Assembly (NCBI RefSeq): GCF_014284305.1
Contig: NZ_JACOFW010000017.1
Location: forward strand, 43,094 to 107,093
DNA length: 64,000 nt
Reading direction: 5' to 3'
DNA from: Affinundibacterium seohonense
GTDB lineage: Bacteria > Pseudomonadota > Gammaproteobacteria > Burkholderiales > Burkholderiaceae_D
Shown here: piece after piece, positions 38,979 through 50,178 of the stretch
How the letters are laid out: each line of letters opens with the position of its first letter
Numbering within the stretch: the first letter of the stretch is position 1
Made by a program: the position numbers and the translations under genes
Notes under the pieces: model-generated
The model's input: the letters and a program-made list of their open reading frames with translations, nothing else
Database searches by the model: none
What the model was told of the DNA's origin: nothing

Positions 38979-40184
38979 CTATCCCTCTCGGCCGTCAACC
39001 CGAGCACGTAACAAATAGGGACCGTATGCGATGACAAACAACAGAAACGCACCGCTCCAGCAGAGCATGGCGACGATCAAACTTGCTTGATACAGTGCCG
39101 GCGCGCTAAGTGAAGCAGCCACACGTGCTACGGCGCCAGTCTGAATCAGCAGATACATGGCTAACTCGGCGTGGCCAGTCTTCAGTAGACGCCCCGTGTG
39201 TCCTAGCGTGGTACGGGTCATCATCCCTAGTATCAATCCAGCCATCGAACCGACCGTTAACGCATGCCACGCTGCGCTGCTTGGGATGAGTCCTATTGCA
39301 CTAAGCGCCAGCATGAAAAAACCCAACGGTATCCAGGCGTAGGACAAGTGCAAAATCCAAACAAGTGGCGTGCCTAAAGTGCGATGTGGTTGCCACAGTG
39401 CGAACCGTGCCAGTACCATGCAGCCAGCACCCCCGCACAACGATGCTATCAGCGCGGAAGGCAAGGGTGAGATCGAGGCCAAACTAGCGATGACTATTGC
39501 GGTAATTGCGCTGCGGTTAAGCCATGGATAGGTGACAGGTATCACGCCTGGCACACCATTCTGGGTAAACATCGGTATCACGCGCGCGCCGATCACTGAC
39601 TCAATGATGACGACGATTAGGATCGCGGCATGTATAGGCAAGGCTGGGTTTAGCGTAATGAGATTTAACACTGCAGCATGAAAAATGGCATTAGCTACGG
39701 TTAACAGCGCTAGCAGCATAATCAGGAACATATTGCGCTTGTTACCAGATTGTTTCAGAACACGGTAAATCGGCCAGGCGGCCAAAGGCAAAAACGATAA
39801 ATCGACCAATGCGGCTAAACTCGGTGGCGCAGCCAACATCGCCACGCGGCCAATTAACCACCAACAGGCAAGCCCTGCTAGATGCAAGTTGGTCGGCGTT
39901 GGCAGACCGGTCCAGTTACGCCCAGCGGTAAACAGAAAGCCAATGATGACCGCGATAACCACTCCAAAAATCATCTCGTGCATATGCCATGCAGCAGTGA
40001 CCTGCGGCCAAGCGCTGAACCAGCCTAAGTATTGCGCGATCCATAAGGGCAGACTCAATGCGGAAAAGCATGCAGCCAGTAAATAAAAGGGCCGAAATCC
40101 CAAACCCCAGACTGGATGTTGTTTATGCCATATAGCGGAATCACTCTTTGTTTCTGGTTCTTCAATTGATAATAAAGTCATCAT
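38979..40184 (-). CDS. nnrS: NnrS, haem-copper membrane protein protecting against NO
   Basis: NnrS is a twelve-helix membrane protein that eases nitrosative stress. This 401-residue copy has the family opening GFRPFYLLAACFSAL (about 29-43), AWHMHEMIFGVVIAVIIGFL with putative haem-copper ligand His residues, GRNWTG, and the later HALTVGSMAGLILGMMTRTTLGHTG. Two ATGs are adjacent at 40184 and 40181, with GAGGG upstream. An NsrR-type dyad lies 18-40 bp before the start, so it should be derepressed by NO with norB. Confidence 0.94.
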   Translation of the reverse strand: MMTLLSIEEPETKSDSAIWHKQHPVWGLGFRPFYLLAACFSALSLPLWIAQYLGWFSAWPQVTAAWHMHEMIFGVVIAVIIGFLFTAGRNWTGLPTPTNLHLAGLACWWLIGRVAMLAAPPSLAALVDLSFLPLAAWPIYRVLKQSGNKRNMFLIMLLALLTVANAIFHAAVLNLITLNPALPIHAAILIVVIIESVIGARVIPMFTQNGVPGVIPVTYPWLNRSAITAIVIASLASISPLPSALIASLCGGAGCMVLARFALWQPHRTLGTPLVWILHLSYAWIPLGFFMLALSAIGLIPSSAAWHALTVGSMAGLILGMMTRTTLGHTGRLLKTGHAELAMYLLIQTGAVARVAASLSAPALYQASLIVAMLCWSGAFLLFVIAYGPYLLRARVDGREG

Positions 40185-40201
40185 TTATCCCTCTTTTTTA
40201 A

Positions 40202-40224
40202 TACATGGATATAATATACATCTT
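40202..40224. promoter_or_regulatory. NsrR operator upstream of nnrS
   Basis: The right arm ATATACATCTT matches the NsrR half site at 10 of 11 and the left arm TACATGGATAT at 7 of 11, around one central base. It is 17 bp from the nnrS ATG, close to where a -10 would lie. It may also affect the divergent metal-binding gene at 40344. Confidence 0.7.
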
Positions 40225-40343
40225 TAATCGAATTCATGCTACTCTTATGCCTTCAGTGTCATCAAGCCAGTAAGGCTAGGAAGCCTTGCTTCGGATGGCG
40301 AATGAACATTACCTATCAAATTAAAGGAAGAAGTGAGAATAAT

Positions 40344-40598
40344 ATGCAAACCGAGATCATAAAAGTAAACGGCATGAAAGGTCAGCCATGCGTCGAGATG
40401 ATTACCCAGACATTGCGTGGGATGGAAGGCGTGATTGAAGTCAGCGTGACGCTCGCCAGCGGTCGCGCGACGTTACGCTACGAAGAACATGTTGCGAGTA
40501 GTATCCAGTTGCGCGCTGCCTTAATCAAACTTGGCTTCGATGTCGATCCCGCCGCTGGCAAGAGTCACAGTGGGTGCTGTGGTAGTTGCGGCGGTTAA
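40344..40598 (+). CDS. Small heavy-metal-associated (HMA) domain protein with altered metal site
   Basis: The 84-residue protein has the beta-alpha fold of HMA metallochaperones (KVNGMKGQPCVEMITQTL near residues 7-24, then GVIEVSVTLASGRATLRY). The usual GMTCxxC is changed to GMKGQPC, leaving a single Cys at that site. The chain ends in CCGSCGG, a Cys-rich tail that could bind metal instead. I chose the ATG at 40344 because it begins the HMA fold; the frame is open for 36 more codons upstream but reaches into the promoter. It is divergent from nnrS. A role in copper or iron delivery is inferred. Confidence 0.78.
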   Translation: MQTEIIKVNGMKGQPCVEMITQTLRGMEGVIEVSVTLASGRATLRYEEHVASSIQLRAALIKLGFDVDPAAGKSHSGCCGSCGG

Positions 40599-40949
40599 TG
40601 TGAAGTGTGAAATGTGAAAGCGAATTCTAGGAATGCGTGCAATTCATGAGTCGTGCAGATAAATGTCTGCATGATGCAATAGCGTTTGCGTCTTTTTGAC
40701 TCGCAAAGTGCTCATGCCATTGGCGATCAGCTAGGATTTAATTTCACACTGGCGAATACTGAACGCAAATATGACATCATTGCCTACGCTTGGTGTCGCC
40801 TCAATGAATCGTTTGGAGTCGTATTTTTAGCCTTGTTCGAATAGTAATCCTACAATCCGTGAAATTTTCTATAAGCGACCGACTGCGGAAAACGCAACTA
40901 GAAGGCAACATGGGAAAATCAAGAAGCCCATGAAAATATTGAAAGAGTG
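40599..40949. other. Non-coding gap between HMA and bacteriohemerythrin genes
   Basis: No frame here looks like a protein. A small dyad, TGCAGA (40654-40659) and TCTGCA (40666-40671), is visible without a T tract. The two flanking genes converge, so a terminator is expected but none is strong. Confidence 0.5.
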
Positions 40950-41363
40950 TTATTGAGGGCTTCCATTAGACTTCTGAATCGCGATCGCCAATTCTTTATC
41001 GGCCATGTAAATATGAGAAGTAAGCCAAAACTTTAGCAGTTCAGCCGTTTCTTTGGCGACGTATTCTCTTTTTTCAGCTAAAGAAGCTTGCAGACGAACT
41101 ACGCGCTCCAGTAATTTCTTGTGCTGCTTCTTATGGTTTTCAAAGCCTGGATAACCAGTTAGTTTCATCATTTCTTCTTCGCGATCAAAATGCTCACTGG
41201 TGTAATCAAATAGGCGCTGTAGGATGTCTCCCAAGATGTCGCAATCCTGCTTTAGATCGGCAGCCGTATAAAGTTCATTGACAATGTCGATCAGATTTTG
41301 ATGATCGCTATCGATGAGCGTATTGCCCACACTCAATGCGCAATTCCATTGAAAGTACACCAT
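40950..41363 (-). CDS. Bacteriohemerythrin
   Basis: The 137-residue protein is a full hemerythrin with all expected diiron landmarks: IDSDHQNLID, YTSEHFDREEEMM, HKKQHKKLLERV and WLTSHIYMADKELA. It binds O2 reversibly in the cytoplasm and may deliver or scavenge O2 or NO. The ATG at 41363 has TAGGA a few bases ahead; an in-frame TTG two codons earlier is less likely. It differs from the nar-cluster HHE protein in type. Confidence 0.92.
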   Translation of the reverse strand: MVYFQWNCALSVGNTLIDSDHQNLIDIVNELYTAADLKQDCDILGDILQRLFDYTSEHFDREEEMMKLTGYPGFENHKKQHKKLLERVVRLQASLAEKREYVAKETAELLKFWLTSHIYMADKELAIAIQKSNGSPQ

Positions 41364-41618
41364 AATCAATTCCTATCCTTAGTTACTTACGAGTGAATTT
41401 CTCCTAGGTGCCTTAGTGTAAATCGGTGGTTGTTTGTGGGCAAGTGTTTGATTGATAATAGGCGAAGTAGATCTATCTTTCAAATGGATGAAAGCTTTTC
41501 AGATGGTTTGAAGAGTTGCACTTTGAAATCTGTACTTTGAGGTAAATTGAAGCTTCAAACCAGCTACTTTTTGAGATGCGCTTTGTTGTGCATTTCTTAG
41601 TGCGCATTGCACGGCGAT

Positions 41619-42338
41619 TTAATGATTCTGTCGCAATGTGAACTTGGGGAATAGATCTTGAAGAGTTTGCAGCGTTGTCGCATCCAGATAATCGTTTGGC
41701 AGACTTGTTTGTAAATTTGTGTCTAGACAGCCTAGTGATCGAAATAGTTGTATCGCATAGTTGGTAACACCCATTTCTGATAAATCGTAAGCCAAATTCA
41801 ATATATCCTCAGAAGACAACAATGCAGGATGAACCGTGGTACGGCATTCGTAATCGACGCCACTAGCCATTATCATCTGTGTGCATGCCTGAATATGCTG
41901 ACCACTATCCGCTTTGCCCGTCACAACGGGGTAGCGATGAAAGGGGGCTTTGATATCAAAGCCTACCCAATCTAGTTTGGGCAAGATGGCTTGTAGTTGT
42001 CGGGGATAAATGCAAGCAGTATGCAAGCCAACTGCAAATCCTAGTTGACGCACTTCATCAATGGCAGAACTTAATGCTGGATCTATTGTTGCCTCACCAC
42101 CGCTAAAAACAACGGCATCGATAAAGCCGACGCGTTGCCTTAACAAATGTAGAACGGACGCCCAAGTAATCGGCGCATTGGCTGTTCTGGTTTGCAAATG
42201 CGGATTATGACAATACCCGCAGCGCCATGGACAGCCTTGCACAAACACGACTAACGATAATTTACCTGGATAATCGGTGCTGCTAAATTTCGTTATTCCA
42301 CCAACTTTGAGTGTGCGCAATGCTGTCGCTGCTGGCAT
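41619..42338 (-). CDS. nrdG: NrdG, anaerobic ribonucleotide reductase activating enzyme
   Basis: NrdG is a radical SAM enzyme that abstracts H from the Gly of class III ribonucleotide reductase. The 239-residue protein has C36, C40 and C43 in CPWRCGYC and the SAM-contact segment VVFSGGEATID. Its length matches the longer TIGR-type 'NrdG2' activases found with NrdD of this kind, not the short E. coli NrdG. It starts one base after the stop of the small glycyl-radical gene, so the partner to be activated is made next to it. Confidence 0.93.
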   Translation of the reverse strand: MPAATALRTLKVGGITKFSSTDYPGKLSLVVFVQGCPWRCGYCHNPHLQTRTANAPITWASVLHLLRQRVGFIDAVVFSGGEATIDPALSSAIDEVRQLGFAVGLHTACIYPRQLQAILPKLDWVGFDIKAPFHRYPVVTGKADSGQHIQACTQMIMASGVDYECRTTVHPALLSSEDILNLAYDLSEMGVTNYAIQLFRSLGCLDTNLQTSLPNDYLDATTLQTLQDLFPKFTLRQNH

Positions 42339-42339
42339 C

Positions 42340-42537
42340 TCAGTAAGCTTTCTCTACTGTATTTTCTTCAAAATAAGTGCGTTCATAAAACTCCCCTTTT
42401 TTGCCGGTATTAAATGAACTCACTGGTCGATGATAGCCCATGACACGGGTCCAGACTTCACAGACTTGACGTTCTGCATCATTTAAGATGATCGATGGAT
42501 TTTGTGTTTGAGAGAGAGGGGCATTGCTAGTGTTCAT
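42340..42537 (-). CDS. Stand-alone glycyl-radical domain of NrdD
   Basis: This 65-residue protein corresponds to the C-terminal glycyl-radical segment of class III ribonucleotide reductase: CEVWTRVMGYHRPVS, with the radical Gly at 34 in RVMGY, then FNTGKKGEFYERTYF. The large nrdD upstream stops after its zinc motif and lacks this part. The separation is not a simple mutation. The gene has AGGAG eight bases ahead of its own ATG, a 17-base spacer after the nrdD stop, and about 20 residues of leader (SNAPLSQTQNPSIILND) before the domain. It should dock onto NrdD and carry the radical, much as YfiD replaces the tail of pyruvate formate-lyase. Confidence 0.88.
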   Translation of the reverse strand: MNTSNAPLSQTQNPSIILNDAERQVCEVWTRVMGYHRPVSSFNTGKKGEFYERTYFEENTVEKAY

Positions 42538-42554
42538 AGAGACTCCTGTTTAAG

Positions 42555-44570
42555 TTAAACAAACTGATGCTGCTTACGAGCGATTAATTCTTCATCGCAT
42601 TTTGGACAAAATTCATGCTGCCCACGAAGATAACCATGCTTAGGGCAAATCGAAAATGTCGGTGAAATAGTGATGTAAGGTAGGGTGAATCGGCTGAGCG
42701 CCTTTCGTACCAAATGGCGGCAAGCGTCGGCACTGCTGAGCGCCTCACTCATATACAAATGTAAGACCGTTCCCCCTGTGTATTTGCGTTGAAGATCATC
42801 TTGCAAAGTGAGGGCGGTAAATGGGTCATCTGTAAAGCCGACCGGTAATTGCGACGAGTTAGTGTAGTAGGGCATATCCTGGGTGCCGGCTTGCAAAATG
42901 GTGGGGAACTGTTTACGGTCTTCTTTTGCAAAACGATAAGTTGTCCCTTCTGCTGGTGTTGCTTCTAGGTTGTACATGTGCCCGGTTTCATCTTGAAACG
43001 CCAACATACGTCCACGCACATGATCCAATAAGCGGACGGCTATCGCGTGCCCTGTGTCGCTGCTGATATCGTGTTGATCGTCGGTGAAGTTACGTATCAT
43101 TTCATTGATACCATTCACGCCTAAGGTAGAGAAATGATTGCGCAATGTGCCGAGGTAGCGTTTGGTGTAGGGGAATAGACCATTATCCATATGGCGCTGT
43201 ATGACTTTGCGTTTGATCTCTAAGCTAGTTTTTCCTAACTCAAGCAACTTATCGAGTGCAGACAATAAGCTAGGTTCGTCGCCACGATGCAAATAACCTA
43301 ACCTCGCACAATTGATGGTGACGACACCAAGAGAGCCTGTTTGTTCGGCTGAACCAAATAAGCCGTTACCACGTTTTAGTAGTTCACGCAGGTCTAACTG
43401 GAGTCGACAGCACATCGAACGTATCATGTTCGGTTTCAACTCAGAGTTAATGAAATTCTGAAAGTAAGGTAAGCCATAACGTGCCGTCATTTCAAAAAGC
43501 AATTCTGCATTTGGACTATGCCAATCAAAATCCTCGGTGATGTTGTAGGTAGGAATAGGGAAGGTGAAGACACGCGCTTTTGCATCGCCCGCCATCATGA
43601 CTTCGATATAAGCGCGATTGATGAGATCCATTTCTGCCTGTAAATCACCATAAGTGAAATCCATCTCAACACCAGCAATCACAGGTACTTGCTCACGTAA
43701 ATCTTCTGGACATGTCCAATCAAAAGTCAGATTGGTAAATGGTGTTTGGGTGCCCCAGCGCGATGGTACATTTAAGTTGTAAATGAGTTCTTGTAGATAT
43801 TGTTTGATGTCCTTGTAATCGAGCTTATCTTTGCGAACATAAGGCGCCATGTAGGTATCAAAAGAACTGAATGCCTGCGCACCAGCCCATTCATTTTGTA
43901 GCGTGCCGAGAAAATTGACGATCTGCCCGATGGCGCTAGAAAAATGCTTAGGCGGATCAGATTCCACTTTTCCTGGAACCCCATTTAATCCTTCGTTTAG
44001 TAAAGTGCGCAAAGACCAACCTGCACAATAGCCTGCCAGCATATCAAGATCATGAATGTGCAAATCGGCATTTCTGTGTGCTTGTCCTACTTCAGGTGGA
44101 TAGACATGATTGAGCCAGTAATTGGCAATAACTTTTCCTGAAACATTGAGTATCAATCCACCTAGTGAATATCCTTGATTGGCGTTTGCATTGATACGCC
44201 AATCTTGTCTGTTTAGATATTCATTCATCGATAATTCAACATCGACTAGGGATTTGTTATCGACCCTTAGTTTCTGATGCTGTTCACGATAAACGATATA
44301 GGCGCGTAAGGTCTTTCGGTAGTTTGCTTCAAACAAGCATGATTCAACCAAATCTTGAATTTGTTCAACAGAAAGTGGCTGAGGTGCCGGAAATTTCTCA
44401 ATGAGGCTGAGCACTTGCATCGTAATTTTGTGCGCTTGATCGGCTACAAATTCATTGCTTGCTGTACCAGCGCGCTTGATTGCAGAAGCTATTTTACTTG
44501 CGTCAAAGCTGACAACGCAGCCATCTCGTTTGATTACTTCACGATGCAGCAAAGGAAGGGTTAAGCTCAT
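42555..44570 (-). CDS. nrdD: NrdD, class III anaerobic ribonucleotide reductase large part lacking the glycyl-radical tail
   Basis: NrdD makes deoxynucleotides from ribonucleoside triphosphates without O2. The 671-residue chain has an ATP-cone (about 8-100, VIKRDGCVVSFDASKI) and the barrel with active-site Cys regions. Its C-terminal zinc site has CPKHGYLRGQHEFCPKC. It ends 12 residues after that site, at ARKQHQFV, where usual NrdD proteins continue with the RVxGY glycyl-radical domain; that domain is the next gene. The start ATG is preceded by AAGGAGC. The promoter has NrdR and FNR boxes. Confidence 0.93.
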   Translation of the reverse strand: MSLTLPLLHREVIKRDGCVVSFDASKIASAIKRAGTASNEFVADQAHKITMQVLSLIEKFPAPQPLSVEQIQDLVESCLFEANYRKTLRAYIVYREQHQKLRVDNKSLVDVELSMNEYLNRQDWRINANANQGYSLGGLILNVSGKVIANYWLNHVYPPEVGQAHRNADLHIHDLDMLAGYCAGWSLRTLLNEGLNGVPGKVESDPPKHFSSAIGQIVNFLGTLQNEWAGAQAFSSFDTYMAPYVRKDKLDYKDIKQYLQELIYNLNVPSRWGTQTPFTNLTFDWTCPEDLREQVPVIAGVEMDFTYGDLQAEMDLINRAYIEVMMAGDAKARVFTFPIPTYNITEDFDWHSPNAELLFEMTARYGLPYFQNFINSELKPNMIRSMCCRLQLDLRELLKRGNGLFGSAEQTGSLGVVTINCARLGYLHRGDEPSLLSALDKLLELGKTSLEIKRKVIQRHMDNGLFPYTKRYLGTLRNHFSTLGVNGINEMIRNFTDDQHDISSDTGHAIAVRLLDHVRGRMLAFQDETGHMYNLEATPAEGTTYRFAKEDRKQFPTILQAGTQDMPYYTNSSQLPVGFTDDPFTALTLQDDLQRKYTGGTVLHLYMSEALSSADACRHLVRKALSRFTLPYITISPTFSICPKHGYLRGQHEFCPKCDEELIARKQHQFV

Positions 44571-44584
44571 TTATGCTCCTTAAA

Positions 44585-44631
44585 ACACAATATGTAGTGT
44601 GTTTTTAAAGAATAGTAACTAAATGTAGTTA
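44585..44631. promoter_or_regulatory. Tandem NrdR boxes ahead of nrdD
   Basis: ACACAATATGTAGTGT at 44585-44600 is a near-perfect NrdR box (ACACwATATATwGTGT). A weaker copy, TAACTAAATGTAGTTA, lies at 44616-44631. The centres are 31 bp apart, about three helical turns, the spacing known for tandem NrdR sites. They should repress the operon when dATP is plentiful. Confidence 0.85.
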
Positions 44632-44664: not shown

Positions 44665-44678
44665 TTGATTTGAGTCAA
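44665..44678. promoter_or_regulatory. FNR/DNR box ahead of nrdD
   Basis: TTGATTTGAGTCAA matches TTGAT-N4-ATCAA at 9 of 10. It is 95-108 bp before the nrdD ATG and upstream of both NrdR boxes, a normal layout for anaerobic activation plus NrdR repression. No convincing -10 is seen at the class II distance. Confidence 0.75.
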
Positions 44679-45699: not shown

Positions 45700-45723
45700 A
45701 AGAACATTCTTATGAATGTTCTT
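45700..45723. repeat. 10-bp inverted repeat just before the copper receptor gene
   Basis: AAGAACATTC and GAATGTTCTT are perfect complements around TTAT, ending 28 bases before the ATG. It could be an operator or an RNA hairpin in the leader. A second small dyad, GTAGCG/CGCTAC, lies nearby at 45665-45678. The rest of 45458-45751 has no gene. Confidence 0.65.
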
Positions 45724-45751
45724 AACGAAAAAATTTATTGAAGAACTAATT

Positions 45752-47980
45752 ATGAATACGCTTTATCGAAAAAAATTAATTGTTTTGGCTATTGTCGCTA
45801 CATTCACAAGCCAATTTTCCTTTGGAAAAGTCCAGCAAAGTGCTTCAAAGAAAGATCAAATCCTTAGTCAAATCACGATTCGTGGAGAAAAGATTGCTGC
45901 ACCTAACGTTGATGGAGAAAGTAAAGCTGGGGCAGCGAGCATTTTGAGTGATACAGCGTCACTTTTAGAAAATATTCCAGGCATGAGTTTATATAAAGCT
46001 GGGGGACTTTCGAGCCTACCATCTTTACATGGTTTGGCAGATGATCGCTTGCGAATACAAGTTGATGGTATGAATTTAATTTCGGCTTGTGCCAATCATA
46101 TGAATCCACCTCTGTCCTATATTGATCCAAGTAATGTTGGGAATGTACAAGTGCTCAATGGCATCGCCCCTGTCAGCAGTGGTGGAGATAGTATCGGTGG
46201 CACAATCAAGGTCAATTCCTCTGCCTCCGTGTTTGCCAATGAAGATCAAGGAAATATTTTAAAAGGGCAAGCCGGAGTCTTTTTCCGAAGTAATAGTCAT
46301 GCTCGTGGCGCTAATGTAAACGCCAATTATGCGACACCAAGCTTCAGTTTTAACTATTCAGCTGCAGTTGCAAAAGCCGATAATTATCTGGCAGCGAAGT
46401 CTTTTAAATTGAATGGATTGTCAGCCTTAGGAAGCGTGACATCTGGCCGAGAAGTTGGTTCATCCGCTTACCAAAGCGAAAATCATGCATTGGGCTTTGC
46501 GATAAGGGGCTCCGATCAATTACTTGAACTGAAACTAGGGTTGCAAGATATTCCCTTACAAGGCTTTCCAAATCAACGAATGGATATGACGCGCAATCGT
46601 AGTGAGCAAATCAATCTGCATTATCGCCAGCAACTTGAGTGGGGCAATGTCGATGCACGGATTTATCATGAACAAACGCAACATAGAATGAATTTCTCTG
46701 ATGATAAGCAATATTGGTATGGTAATGCGCCTGGCATGCCGATGGAAACAGCGGGACACAACACGGGTGCGGTACTCAAAGCAGATTGGGTGTTGTCTGA
46801 GCGTGATAAATTGATTCTTGGCTCCGAATTGCAGCGATATCGCATGAACGATTGGTGGAATGCATCAGGTACGGGCATGATGATGGCACCGAATACCTTT
46901 ATCAATATTAAAGATGGCGAACGCAATCGACTTGCTATATTCGCTGAGTGGGAAACGCAGTGGAGTCCTACTTGGTTTAGTCAGCTCGGTGTGCGCAGTG
47001 AACGCGTCAGAATGGATAGCGGTGCCGTCGCTGGATATAACAATATGGCCTATGGTGATCCAACTTCCACCACATCTATTCCTGGCATCTTCAATCATAG
47101 TGATCGTCAAGGAAACGATCATAATATTGATGTAAGCGCGGTATTTCGTTTTGCCCCAGATAGTAATTTTAGTGTTGATGGCGGCTATGCTTACAAGACG
47201 CGTTCACCCAATTTATACGAGCGTTATACATGGGCAAATAGTAATACCATGGTGATGAACATGAACAATTGGTTTGGCGATGGCAATGGTTACGTTGGTA
47301 ATTTGCAATTGAAACCAGAGATTGCACAAACCTTGAGTGCGACAATTCATTGGCAGAATTTTGTTGACAGCGGAATTGAATTCAAGCTTGCGCCATTTTA
47401 TACAAGGGTGCGTGATTACATTGATGCTGTCGCTTGTTCGTCTATTGGAAAAATTTGTGCTGCGCGCAAAGATGGTTTTGTTAACTTGAGTTTGAGTAAC
47501 CAGCAGGCCGAGTTATTCGGAATCGATTTGTCGTTCGAAAAAACGCTCGCACAATCCCGCGATTTTGGAAAAATTCATGCGAAAGGCGGTATCAATTATG
47601 TGCGCGGAGAGAACACACAAACGCGTACTGGTCTCTATAACATCATGCCATTGAATGCAAAATTCAGCTTGCAGCAACAAATTGATCGATGGACAAATAC
47701 CTTAGAGTGGCAGGTGGTCAATGCTAAATCTCATGTTTCAGAAATTCGCCGTGAGTTAAATACTTCTGGTTACGCATTGGTAAATCTGCGTGCAAGTTAT
47801 GATTTTCAGCAGGGACGAATTGATTTTGGTGTGGAAAATTTAACCAATCGTTTTTATTCTTTACCCTTGGGTGGTGCTTATCTAGGACAGGGTGCTACGA
47901 TGGGAATGGGCGTTCCTCATGGGACGACCGTGCCGGGAGTTGGACGTTCTATGTATGTTAGTGGCACATGGAAGTTCTGA
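45752..47980 (+). CDS. oprC: TonB-dependent copper receptor, OprC/NosA type
   Basis: This 742-residue outer-membrane receptor should import copper, needed in quantity for NosZ. It has a signal peptide (to about residue 25), a plug domain, and a 22-strand barrel ending in aromatic Phe (SGTWKF). The plug has MNLISACANHMNPPLSY with C113 and M117, the CxxxM copper-binding pair of OprC, followed by the family YIDPSNVGNVQV segment. The ATG at 45752 begins the signal peptide; an upstream ATG in frame lies inside the inverted-repeat leader. NosA of Pseudomonas stutzeri belongs to the same family and is linked to N2O reduction. Confidence 0.9.
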   Translation: MNTLYRKKLIVLAIVATFTSQFSFGKVQQSASKKDQILSQITIRGEKIAAPNVDGESKAGAASILSDTASLLENIPGMSLYKAGGLSSLPSLHGLADDRLRIQVDGMNLISACANHMNPPLSYIDPSNVGNVQVLNGIAPVSSGGDSIGGTIKVNSSASVFANEDQGNILKGQAGVFFRSNSHARGANVNANYATPSFSFNYSAAVAKADNYLAAKSFKLNGLSALGSVTSGREVGSSAYQSENHALGFAIRGSDQLLELKLGLQDIPLQGFPNQRMDMTRNRSEQINLHYRQQLEWGNVDARIYHEQTQHRMNFSDDKQYWYGNAPGMPMETAGHNTGAVLKADWVLSERDKLILGSELQRYRMNDWWNASGTGMMMAPNTFINIKDGERNRLAIFAEWETQWSPTWFSQLGVRSERVRMDSGAVAGYNNMAYGDPTSTTSIPGIFNHSDRQGNDHNIDVSAVFRFAPDSNFSVDGGYAYKTRSPNLYERYTWANSNTMVMNMNNWFGDGNGYVGNLQLKPEIAQTLSATIHWQNFVDSGIEFKLAPFYTRVRDYIDAVACSSIGKICAARKDGFVNLSLSNQQAELFGIDLSFEKTLAQSRDFGKIHAKGGINYVRGENTQTRTGLYNIMPLNAKFSLQQQIDRWTNTLEWQVVNAKSHVSEIRRELNTSGYALVNLRASYDFQQGRIDFGVENLTNRFYSLPLGGAYLGQGATMGMGVPHGTTVPGVGRSMYVSGTWKF

Positions 47981-48233: not shown

Positions 48234-48965
48234 CTAAGCAAAGTTTCTGCCTTCTCCAGCTTCTTCATAAGTCACGCCGTCGCGTATGTGATAAATCCGC
48301 TTGAACGTGGGGATAATTTTTTCATCGTGAGTAACAACGACGATGGCGGTATCGAACTGTTTAGCCATTTGGTTGAGTATGCGGATGACAGCTAATGCGC
48401 GCTCACTATCAAGTGGTGCGGTTGGCTCATCGGCTAAGATGACTGGTGGCCGGTTGATTAATCCACGTGCAATCGAAACCCTTTGTTGCTCGCCACCAGA
48501 TAATTGGGATGGCATTGCTTTGGCTCTATGTCCTACATCCAACGCCTCGAAGAGTGCGACCGCACGTTGACGAGCTTCGGCATTGGCAACACCTGCCAGC
48601 ATTGGTAATAGAGCTACATTATCAGTGACATCTAAGAACGGAATTAAATACGGTGCTTGAAAAACAAAACCAATCTTGTCACGCCTTAGTGCTCGTAAAT
48701 CTTTAATATTCCATCCATTCTCATAGATCACATCTTGGCCTAAAATCATGCGCCCTGAAGTGGGCTCAATGACGGCACCGAGACATTTTAAAAGGGTACT
48801 TTTACCAGAGCCAGATGGCCCCACCAGACCAACCACTTCGCCGGGGGCTACCACCATATTGACATTTTTTAAGGCATGGACTGCAGTATCTCCTTGACCA
48901 TAGGTCTTGGTTAGATTCTCGATTCGAATACCTTTGCCTTTTGTGTTTAGTGATTTATCCACCAA
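48234..48965 (-). CDS. ABC transporter ATP-binding protein, MacB/DevA-like
   Basis: The 243-residue ATPase has Walker A GPSGSGKS (49-56), a Q-loop FVFQAPY, signature LSGGEQQR and Walker B VILADEPTAPLD. It is of the LolD/DevA class that powers permeases acting on periplasmic substrates. It overlaps the permease gene by 11 bases and completes a tetR-fusion protein-permease-ATPase operon. The transported compound is unknown; copper or metal stress is suggested only by neighbours. Confidence 0.9.
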   Translation of the reverse strand: MVDKSLNTKGKGIRIENLTKTYGQGDTAVHALKNVNMVVAPGEVVGLVGPSGSGKSTLLKCLGAVIEPTSGRMILGQDVIYENGWNIKDLRALRRDKIGFVFQAPYLIPFLDVTDNVALLPMLAGVANAEARQRAVALFEALDVGHRAKAMPSQLSGGEQQRVSIARGLINRPPVILADEPTAPLDSERALAVIRILNQMAKQFDTAIVVVTHDEKIIPTFKRIYHIRDGVTYEEAGEGRNFA

Positions 48966-50178
48966 TGGCCTCCGCTGGGTCTACCTGTAAAGCAACGCGT
49001 ATCGCGAGTAAGCTGGCCAACATACAAATCGCCATTACTGCAAAAAAACCACTGACGGCGTCGCTATTTTCTAGCAATACATATTTGGGGAAAATGGGTG
49101 CCCAAAATGTTGCTGATATTTTTCCTACTGCAAAACCGATGACACCTAAGGCTAAGGATTGCTGCAGAATCATGGTGGCAATTGTGCGGTTTTTTGTACC
49201 AATTAATTTTAGTACTGCGATCTCACGAATTTTCCCTATCGTTAGTGTGTAAATAATGAAGGCAACAATCGCGGCACTGACGATCGCTAATATCACCAAG
49301 AACATACCAATTTGTTTGGCAGAAGTGGCGATTAATTTTGCAATCAATATGTCTTCCATTTGTACGCGTGTATAAACTGTTAAATGCTTCCATCGACGGA
49401 TTGGCTCTGCAACACTTTCGGGATCGGTTCCAGGGCTTATTTGCACTAAAACAGCGTTAACGGAGTTGTTCACACTTTGTGACTGAATTACTGCTGCCAA
49501 TAGCGTTGGCGTATTAGGTCGATTTAGTGCCGGATTTTGTGCGGTGCGTGCACGTTGCCGGACAATCGCATCGTTGTCTTTTAAAAATTGTGCCTCTTGC
49601 GCATCACGCAATGGAATGAAAATCATCGGATCGCCGCCGGACGACACCATGCGACGGGTCAGTCCGACTACCTGATATTGATTGCGGCGAATTTTGATGT
49701 TCTCTCCTAGTTGTAAGCCTGAAGAGATGTCTGCGATAGCTTCATAGTGATCACGCGTGATGTGTCTGCCAGCGACTAGATAGGCTGGCTGCCCTGGTTG
49801 CGCAGGTGCGTTGGTAACGGTGCCGACAATCATCGCACGAACCTCATTCGCCATATTTGTACTGCGCGCTTGGGTTTTACGTACTTGCATCGTAAGGTAA
49901 GTCACATTGCTAGCTGCGGCTACGCCTTGCATGCCAAGTAGGCTGCGATAAGTGTCGTCATAAATACTCGATGCCTCTGCGTATGGCCCGAGGGTATCTT
50001 GTTGCACGATCCATAAATCAGCGCCGCTATTATCAAGCAGAGTTTTGGCATCATCTACCATGCCGCGATAAATGCCTGCCATAGTGAGAGTTACGCCGAT
50101 CAATAGGCCAAGACCGATCCCAGTAAAAACGAATTTACCCCAGCTATGTAAAATATCGCGGCCGGCCAGGCTAATCAT
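48955..50178 (-). CDS. ABC transporter permease, FtsX/MacB-like (DevC type)
   Basis: The 407-residue permease has one N-terminal helix (about 17-37), a large periplasmic domain of about 230 residues, and three C-terminal helices carrying the FtsX-type domain (IREIAVLKLIGTKNRTIATMI near 320-340). This is the DevC-like form of ABC exporters. It overlaps the fusion-protein gene by four bases and the ATPase gene by 11. The complex likely moves a substrate out through an outer-membrane channel not encoded here. Confidence 0.88.
   Translation of the reverse strand: MISLAGRDILHSWGKFVFTGIGLGLLIGVTLTMAGIYRGMVDDAKTLLDNSGADLWIVQQDTLGPYAEASSIYDDTYRSLLGMQGVAAASNVTYLTMQVRKTQARSTNMANEVRAMIVGTVTNAPAQPGQPAYLVAGRHITRDHYEAIADISSGLQLGENIKIRRNQYQVVGLTRRMVSSGGDPMIFIPLRDAQEAQFLKDNDAIVRQRARTAQNPALNRPNTPTLLAAVIQSQSVNNSVNAVLVQISPGTDPESVAEPIRRWKHLTVYTRVQMEDILIAKLIATSAKQIGMFLVILAIVSAAIVAFIIYTLTIGKIREIAVLKLIGTKNRTIATMILQQSLALGVIGFAVGKISATFWAPIFPKYVLLENSDAVSGFFAVMAICMLASLLAIRVALQVDPAEAIGG

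Follow-up and report, generated by a model that had tools for sequence, protein, structure and literature searches.

We analyzed a stretch of 64,000 nucleotides from Affinundibacterium seohonense (contig NZ_JACOFW010000017.1; this whole stretch is called the window), in which the genes of a class III ribonucleotide reductase (RNR) lie on the minus strand in the order nrdD, a small open reading frame (ORF) encoding a separate glycyl-radical domain (GRD), and nrdG. The features of the locus were as follows.

42555..44570, minus strand: nrdD large chain of 671 amino acids, with an ATP-cone (PF03477), NRDD barrel, MCCR finger loop and zinc motif, and no glycyl-radical motif
42550..42557, minus strand: nrdD stop codon (42555-42557) and, two bases on, a stop codon in the GRD frame (42550-42552), read in the sequence
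42543..42547, minus strand: AGGAG ribosome-binding site of the GRD gene, read in the sequence; the ATG is at 42537
42340..42537, minus strand: separate GRD gene of 65 amino acids, with RVMGY and Gly34; PF13597 positions 531-562
41619..42338, minus strand: nrdG, radical-SAM activase of 239 amino acids; TIGR02495 at 193.7 bits (cut-off 131), PF04055

The 671-amino-acid chain scored 1140 bits against the NrdD family model NF006126 (cut-off 548) and 581 bits against PF13597, and its finger-loop cysteines were found in the form SMCCR. The putative zinc motif, CPKH...CPKC, has three Cys and one His, compared with four Cys in the reference pattern. The chain ended with CPKHGYLRGQHEFCPKC followed by DEELIARKQHQFV, 13 residues past the last zinc-motif Cys (the original prediction, made from the letters alone, had counted 12). 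The Pfam profile PF13597 (NRDD; 562 positions) was divided between the two ORFs, with positions 2-531 in NrdD and 531-562 in the small ORF, and both ORF reading and Pfam indicated that the glycyl-radical loop was absent from the NrdD chain and encoded by the separate gene. The central proposal of the original prediction, that the GRD of this class III RNR is its own protein, was borne out: the separate frame, its own AGGAG and ATG, RVMGY and Gly34 were all found, and nrdG started (42338) one base after the stop of the small ORF (42340). Judged by these motifs, the window enzyme is a class III RNR of the MCCR, NrdDh group 4-like type, in a variant with two chains.

To determine how general the split is, we used PF13597 to search 299 genomes of the phylum (47 with any match), 399 of the order (128) and 370 of the class (39), and the window NrdD to search 60 relatives. 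From the fetched loci, 143 distinct NrdDs with the MCCR finger loop were picked by pattern. Excluded from this census were G239 (two in-frame stops; the same as L062), G692 (contig end), the fragmented or partial matches G812, G856, G962, G1046 and G893, and the fused NrdDs of SRVVGY or SRIVGY type L031, L100, L101 and L124, which the pattern missed. The pattern counted 132 NrdDs with an adjacent separate GRD, 3 fused and 8 with none adjacent; four of these eight have an adjacent GRD that the pattern overlooked, and one is at a contig end, with a GRD opening another contig. In total, the GRD is thus a separate gene next to nrdD in 136 of the 143 cases and a separate gene elsewhere in the genome in 3; a further 3 NrdDs are fused, and the last is the one at the contig end. 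The GRD was located beside nrdG with nrdD approximately 9 kb away in G042, on a different contig from nrdD in G380 (a draft assembly), and approximately 2.3 kb on from nrdD in G388. When L001-L207 were counted again by finger loop, 140 MCCR chains lacked a GRD and 5 were fused; this count missed the fused L031 and L100. Thus, relatives with nrdD followed by a short RVMGY frame, which the original prediction had proposed to look for, were the rule, and neither a split restricted to the source strain nor relatives that are always fused was observed.

When the small ORF was used as the query, 5515 proteins of similar length matched at E <= 0.001. We classified 96 named loci (80 genome contigs among the matches listed and 16 of 29 plasmid records): 84 had a separate GRD with an NrdD frame nearby, 2 were fused, 9 had a lone GRD (three of them, L320, L361 and L364, near contig ends), and 1 (L217) was unclassified by the pattern and is fused. 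Split operons were found in named records of Cupriavidus necator H16 (pHG1), Azospira, Shinella and Sulfuricurvum, the last from another phylum, and short GRDs were also listed for Pseudomonas and Stutzerimonas species. The small protein is already named in databases, some copies having been called 'anaerobic ribonucleoside-triphosphate reductase' by annotation pipelines.

Several of these loci differed in arrangement. Two genomes of approximately 0.9 Mb from other families of the phylum, L062 (G239) and L063 (G220), have a related NrdD, which is split in G220 and has two in-frame stops, counted within the match, in G239. On Azospira sp. I09 plasmid pAZI09 (L219), an alpha subunit, nrdD, GRD, nrdG and a beta subunit form one cluster, followed by an integrase, and class I and split class III genes thus stand together. 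A Bradyrhizobium plasmid (L211) and a Thiothrix plasmid (L218) have GRD and nrdG annotated with no nrdD listed before them, in gene tables that are incomplete; by pattern, an NrdD-like frame of >120 residues was found in both, and none of >450 residues in L218, whose large nrdD gene may be broken.

The small gene has the properties of a gene in its own right. A ribosome-site match was found 5-8 nt before the best-placed ATG in 118 of the 130 GRDs with an ATG. In seven close pairs pooled, which have one sequence in common and are not entirely independent, we counted 42 synonymous substitutions in 200 sites and 16 nonsynonymous substitutions in 787 sites. This low ratio of nonsynonymous to synonymous substitution (dN/dS) indicates that the GRD is under purifying selection.

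We examined descent with a quick tree of 50 rows, in which inner support was low. The WTRVMGYHRP-type clade had an SH-aLRT support of 100, and five fused rows of another motif type fell outside it. Within the clade there were three fused lineages (family f105, an Acidithiobacillus plasmid and an Actinomyces plasmid), suggesting re-fusion. The split rows as a single clade were not rejected by the approximately unbiased test (AU p 0.258); with the low inner support, three re-fusions and several splits are not firmly distinguishable. Further full-length relatives, among the best 120 of 7998, belonged to other phyla and to archaea, and the radical glycine was kept in the chain in the 46 of these that were aligned.

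A structural model of a read-through relative placed the GRD where solved class III enzymes have theirs. The first AF2 model was weak (pLDDT 70) and a second model was taken instead. The GRD is accordingly predicted to fill the usual GRD place.

We then scanned viral contigs with the GRD alignment, which gave 168 relatives; the best 80, in records of 4 to 108 kb, were kept. By pattern, a GRD ORF without nrdD or nrdG in the stretch examined was found in 77 of these 80; nrdD was flagged in one other record, and the exact motif was missing from the remaining two. PF13597 searched over the whole records matched the GRD part only in 80 of 80, the flagged record being a GRD alone; one record had an extra match of 11.5 bits, below the cut-off. 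Further, no NrdG was detected in any of the 50 of these records that were searched for it. As a control we used the C-terminus of the fused E. coli-type NrdD, and its GRD was part of an NrdD chain of >300 residues in 52 of 55 viral loci; the remainder comprised two shorter ORFs still holding the zinc motif and one unclassified locus. Lone viral GRDs were therefore seen for the split type only.

The tested neighbors of the viral GRDs include endolysin, holin, Rz-like spanin, tail fibre, tape measure, terminase, portal and DNA polymerase genes, and several tested neighbors had no match. An endolysin of one cluster was located within approximately 1.1 kb of the GRD in 10 viral loci and further away in 2, and a cell-wall hydrolase within approximately 1.3 kb in 4. 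The viral GRDs formed 34 clusters at 80% over 43 residues, and these together with the varied settings suggest several acquisitions. Of the 17 host-invariant positions, 15 were conserved in the viral cores, as was the glycine; the two that vary are C-8 and F+8. WTRVMGY and FNxGK were in the search patterns, so that their conservation is partly a selection effect; R-11, E-7, R+3, P+4 and R+19 are invariant in the viral proteins and lie outside the patterns. All of the eight GRDs compared matched phrog_4132, to which no function is assigned. A protein cluster represented by a reverse transcriptase (phrog_1423) occurred in 10 of the 80 viral loci, including L264, and perhaps belongs to a diversity-generating retroelement.

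Lone copies were also found in hosts and on plasmids. We searched 10 host genomes with the GRD alignment, half of them chosen for showing an extra match, and five (G399, G549, G610, G632 and G926) had a linked GRD and one or two further GRDs elsewhere. In G610 the extra GRD was flanked on either side by a weakly matched Rz-like gene, with endolysin and holin genes alongside; viral contig L237 encodes an identical GRD protein and may be a provirus of G610 or of a close genome. In G549, one extra GRD was located near an AcaB-type gene and another among ordinary-looking genes; in G926 the extra GRD was near a RecT-like gene. The G926 stretch (L404, contig 3) also holds, by eye, a 952-amino-acid ribonucleotide reductase of B12-dependent type together with the lone GRD and the RecT-like gene. 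Two Allochromatium plasmids have a GRD without a nearby nrdD.

Known class III RNRs are permanently inactivated once O2 cuts the glycyl-radical loop. The own frame and start signals of the small gene, its adjacency to nrdD in most relatives, the conservation of the GRD, its single large clade and the lone GRDs of viruses and plasmids can all be read from the sequences, and we consider it probable that they reflect a two-piece class III reductase with an exchangeable radical subunit, of which phages likely bring their own copy. In such an enzyme, composed of the large chain, the small GRD protein and the NrdG activase, the docking site of the small protein would be next to the large chain's zinc motif, NrdG would place the glycyl radical on the docked protein, and the radical would pass in trans to the finger-loop cysteines. 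After cleavage by O2, the small protein would be swapped for a fresh one and the large chain kept; phages that rely on host NrdD and NrdG would carry their own GRD for the swap. We infer the formation of the radical in trans, the repair after O2 and the rescue by viral copies from this arrangement, with viruses as the likely source of replacement radical parts for the host enzyme. The original prediction had offered a possible repair role like that of YfiD for the split, and the GRD genes that viral records and plasmids carry without NrdD lend support to it. The broader proposal, that a large, mainly proteobacterial clade uses a detachable and tradable radical subunit, and that prophages, phages, plasmids and conjugative elements carry their own copy, re-arming the host enzyme after O2 damage or during infection, has in our judgment an even chance of being correct.

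Alternatively, the split may be real but serve regulation or assembly, such as dosage with NrdG or control by dATP through a loose GRD, with the viral copies boosting the host enzyme by mass action. This possibility is a serious one, although we rate it below even. It is consistent with G042, in which the GRD stays with nrdG though nrdD is distant, and with the NrdD of P. copri, whose GRD turns mobile with dATP (PMC11226230). However, it does not by itself explain why the radical part alone is retained by different phages.

The phage GRDs could instead be decoys or inhibitors that occupy the host large chain or NrdG and redirect the supply of deoxynucleoside triphosphates (dNTPs), which we regard as unlikely. 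Some viral GRDs are indeed near late and lysis genes, an odd time for making dNTPs, but the viral cores keep the glycine and nearly all host-invariant positions, five of them outside the search patterns, and in L273 and L275 the GRD is one gene behind a phage DNA polymerase gene.

A programmed frameshift or stop read-through that merges the nrdD and GRD frames into one chain is very improbable. A single stop in the same frame separates nrdD and GRD in 31 of 132 adjacent pairs, as such a mechanism would allow, but the three frame relations were about equally common (47, 46 and 39). In the window, the two frames cannot be joined by a single frameshift because the GRD-frame stop lies between the nrdD stop and the ATG; further, some GRDs are far from nrdD and viral records have GRDs without it.

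The chance that a sequencing error or a decaying gene in the source strain produced the split is negligible, given the second stop, the recurrence of this layout in 136 of 143 genes and on the complete plasmid pHG1 of C. necator H16, and the low dN/dS. We thus ruled out sequencing error, gene decay and, with the frame spread, frameshift fusion.

Several points weigh against the two-piece enzyme with an exchangeable, phage-borne radical subunit. We found no activity, electron paramagnetic resonance or binding result for any split pair. The modelled chain was joined by a natural linker read through a stop codon, and the binding of two free chains is outside the reach of the model. Splitting is not indispensable, because three fused lineages lie inside the clade. 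The viral records are predicted viruses, picked by GRD motifs, whose completeness and hosts are not established. In a phage-record collection, a typed consensus GRD had no match and a real viral GRD had three weak matches (best E 0.04).

The closest known counterparts are the pyruvate formate-lyase spare parts YfiD/GrcA (E. coli) and Y06I (phage T4), the sole validated ones according to PMC8683613, which considers spare parts of other enzymes possible. Like these two proteins, one from a host and the other from a phage, the GRD is a short autonomous protein with a glycyl-radical loop; unlike them, its partner is NrdD and not pyruvate formate-lyase. Further, the GRD fits the NRDD profile: at E<=1, Pfam gave PF13597 only and no Gly_radical for the window GRD and nine further stand-alone GRDs. 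YfiD patches an enzyme that is made whole, whereas the host large chain here never has a GRD of its own and the small protein would be a standing subunit.

The fused class III NrdDs of T. maritima (4coi), P. copri (8p23) and phage T4 (1h7a) share the barrel, finger loop, zinc motif, GRD and modelled GRD position with the window enzyme, in which, unlike in these, the GRD is a second polypeptide. The statement of the original prediction that known NrdDs carry the GRD in the chain therefore holds for the solved enzymes and fails for the MCCR clade, in which the split is the rule. MCCR is the finger-loop motif of NrdDh group 4 (Aurelius, 2015; PMC4493059), and the passages of that paper on the group do not mention a separate GRD. 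The split class II NrdJa/NrdJb of P. aeruginosa (PMC4860495, PMC9669993) likewise has an RNR catalytic chain distributed over two genes, but it is of class II and without a glycyl radical. Phage nrdD genes interrupted by introns, inteins, homing endonucleases or unexplained breaks have been reported (PMC3653736); there too nrdD is in pieces in phages, and the passages concerned describe no lone GRD. Our full-text literature searches, which most subscription papers lay outside, found no description of a separate NrdD GRD or a lone viral GRD.

If the proposed exchange is correct, this system would be the first besides that of pyruvate formate-lyase to provide a glycyl-radical enzyme with spare parts, and its auxiliary gene would contribute a single domain to a host enzyme. 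It points to phages that both rely on an anaerobic host enzyme and maintain it by means of one small domain. A natural enzyme whose glycyl-radical loop resides on its own protein of 50-70 residues also offers a ready-made pair for testing whether glycyl-radical enzymes other than pyruvate formate-lyase have spare parts, a question raised in PMC8683613. Further, a function can be offered for phrog_4132 and for the short 'nrdD' entries beside nrdD in annotated records, and earlier nrdDG genetics in Cupriavidus, and possibly Pseudomonas, would have involved a third small gene.

Upstream of nrdD we found two candidate regulatory sites, using consensus sequences that we take to be those of the NrdR box and of FNR/ANR.

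44585..44600, no strand assigned: candidate NrdR-box-like palindrome with 1 mismatch; a match at <=2 mismatches occurred in 5 of 100 shuffles
44665..44678, no strand assigned: candidate FNR/ANR-like site with 1 mismatch; the window holds 8 such sites compared with 4.4 expected, which makes the site weak alone

Further upstream are a TonB-dependent receptor gene (45716-47980, plus strand) and then genes for an ABC transporter ATPase and a MacB/FtsX-type permease (48234-50178, minus strand). Just past nrdG, positions 38979-41369 encode NnrS (PF05940), a heavy-metal-associated protein and a hemerythrin, and this NnrS/hemerythrin neighborhood fits an anaerobic or nitric-oxide-related setting.
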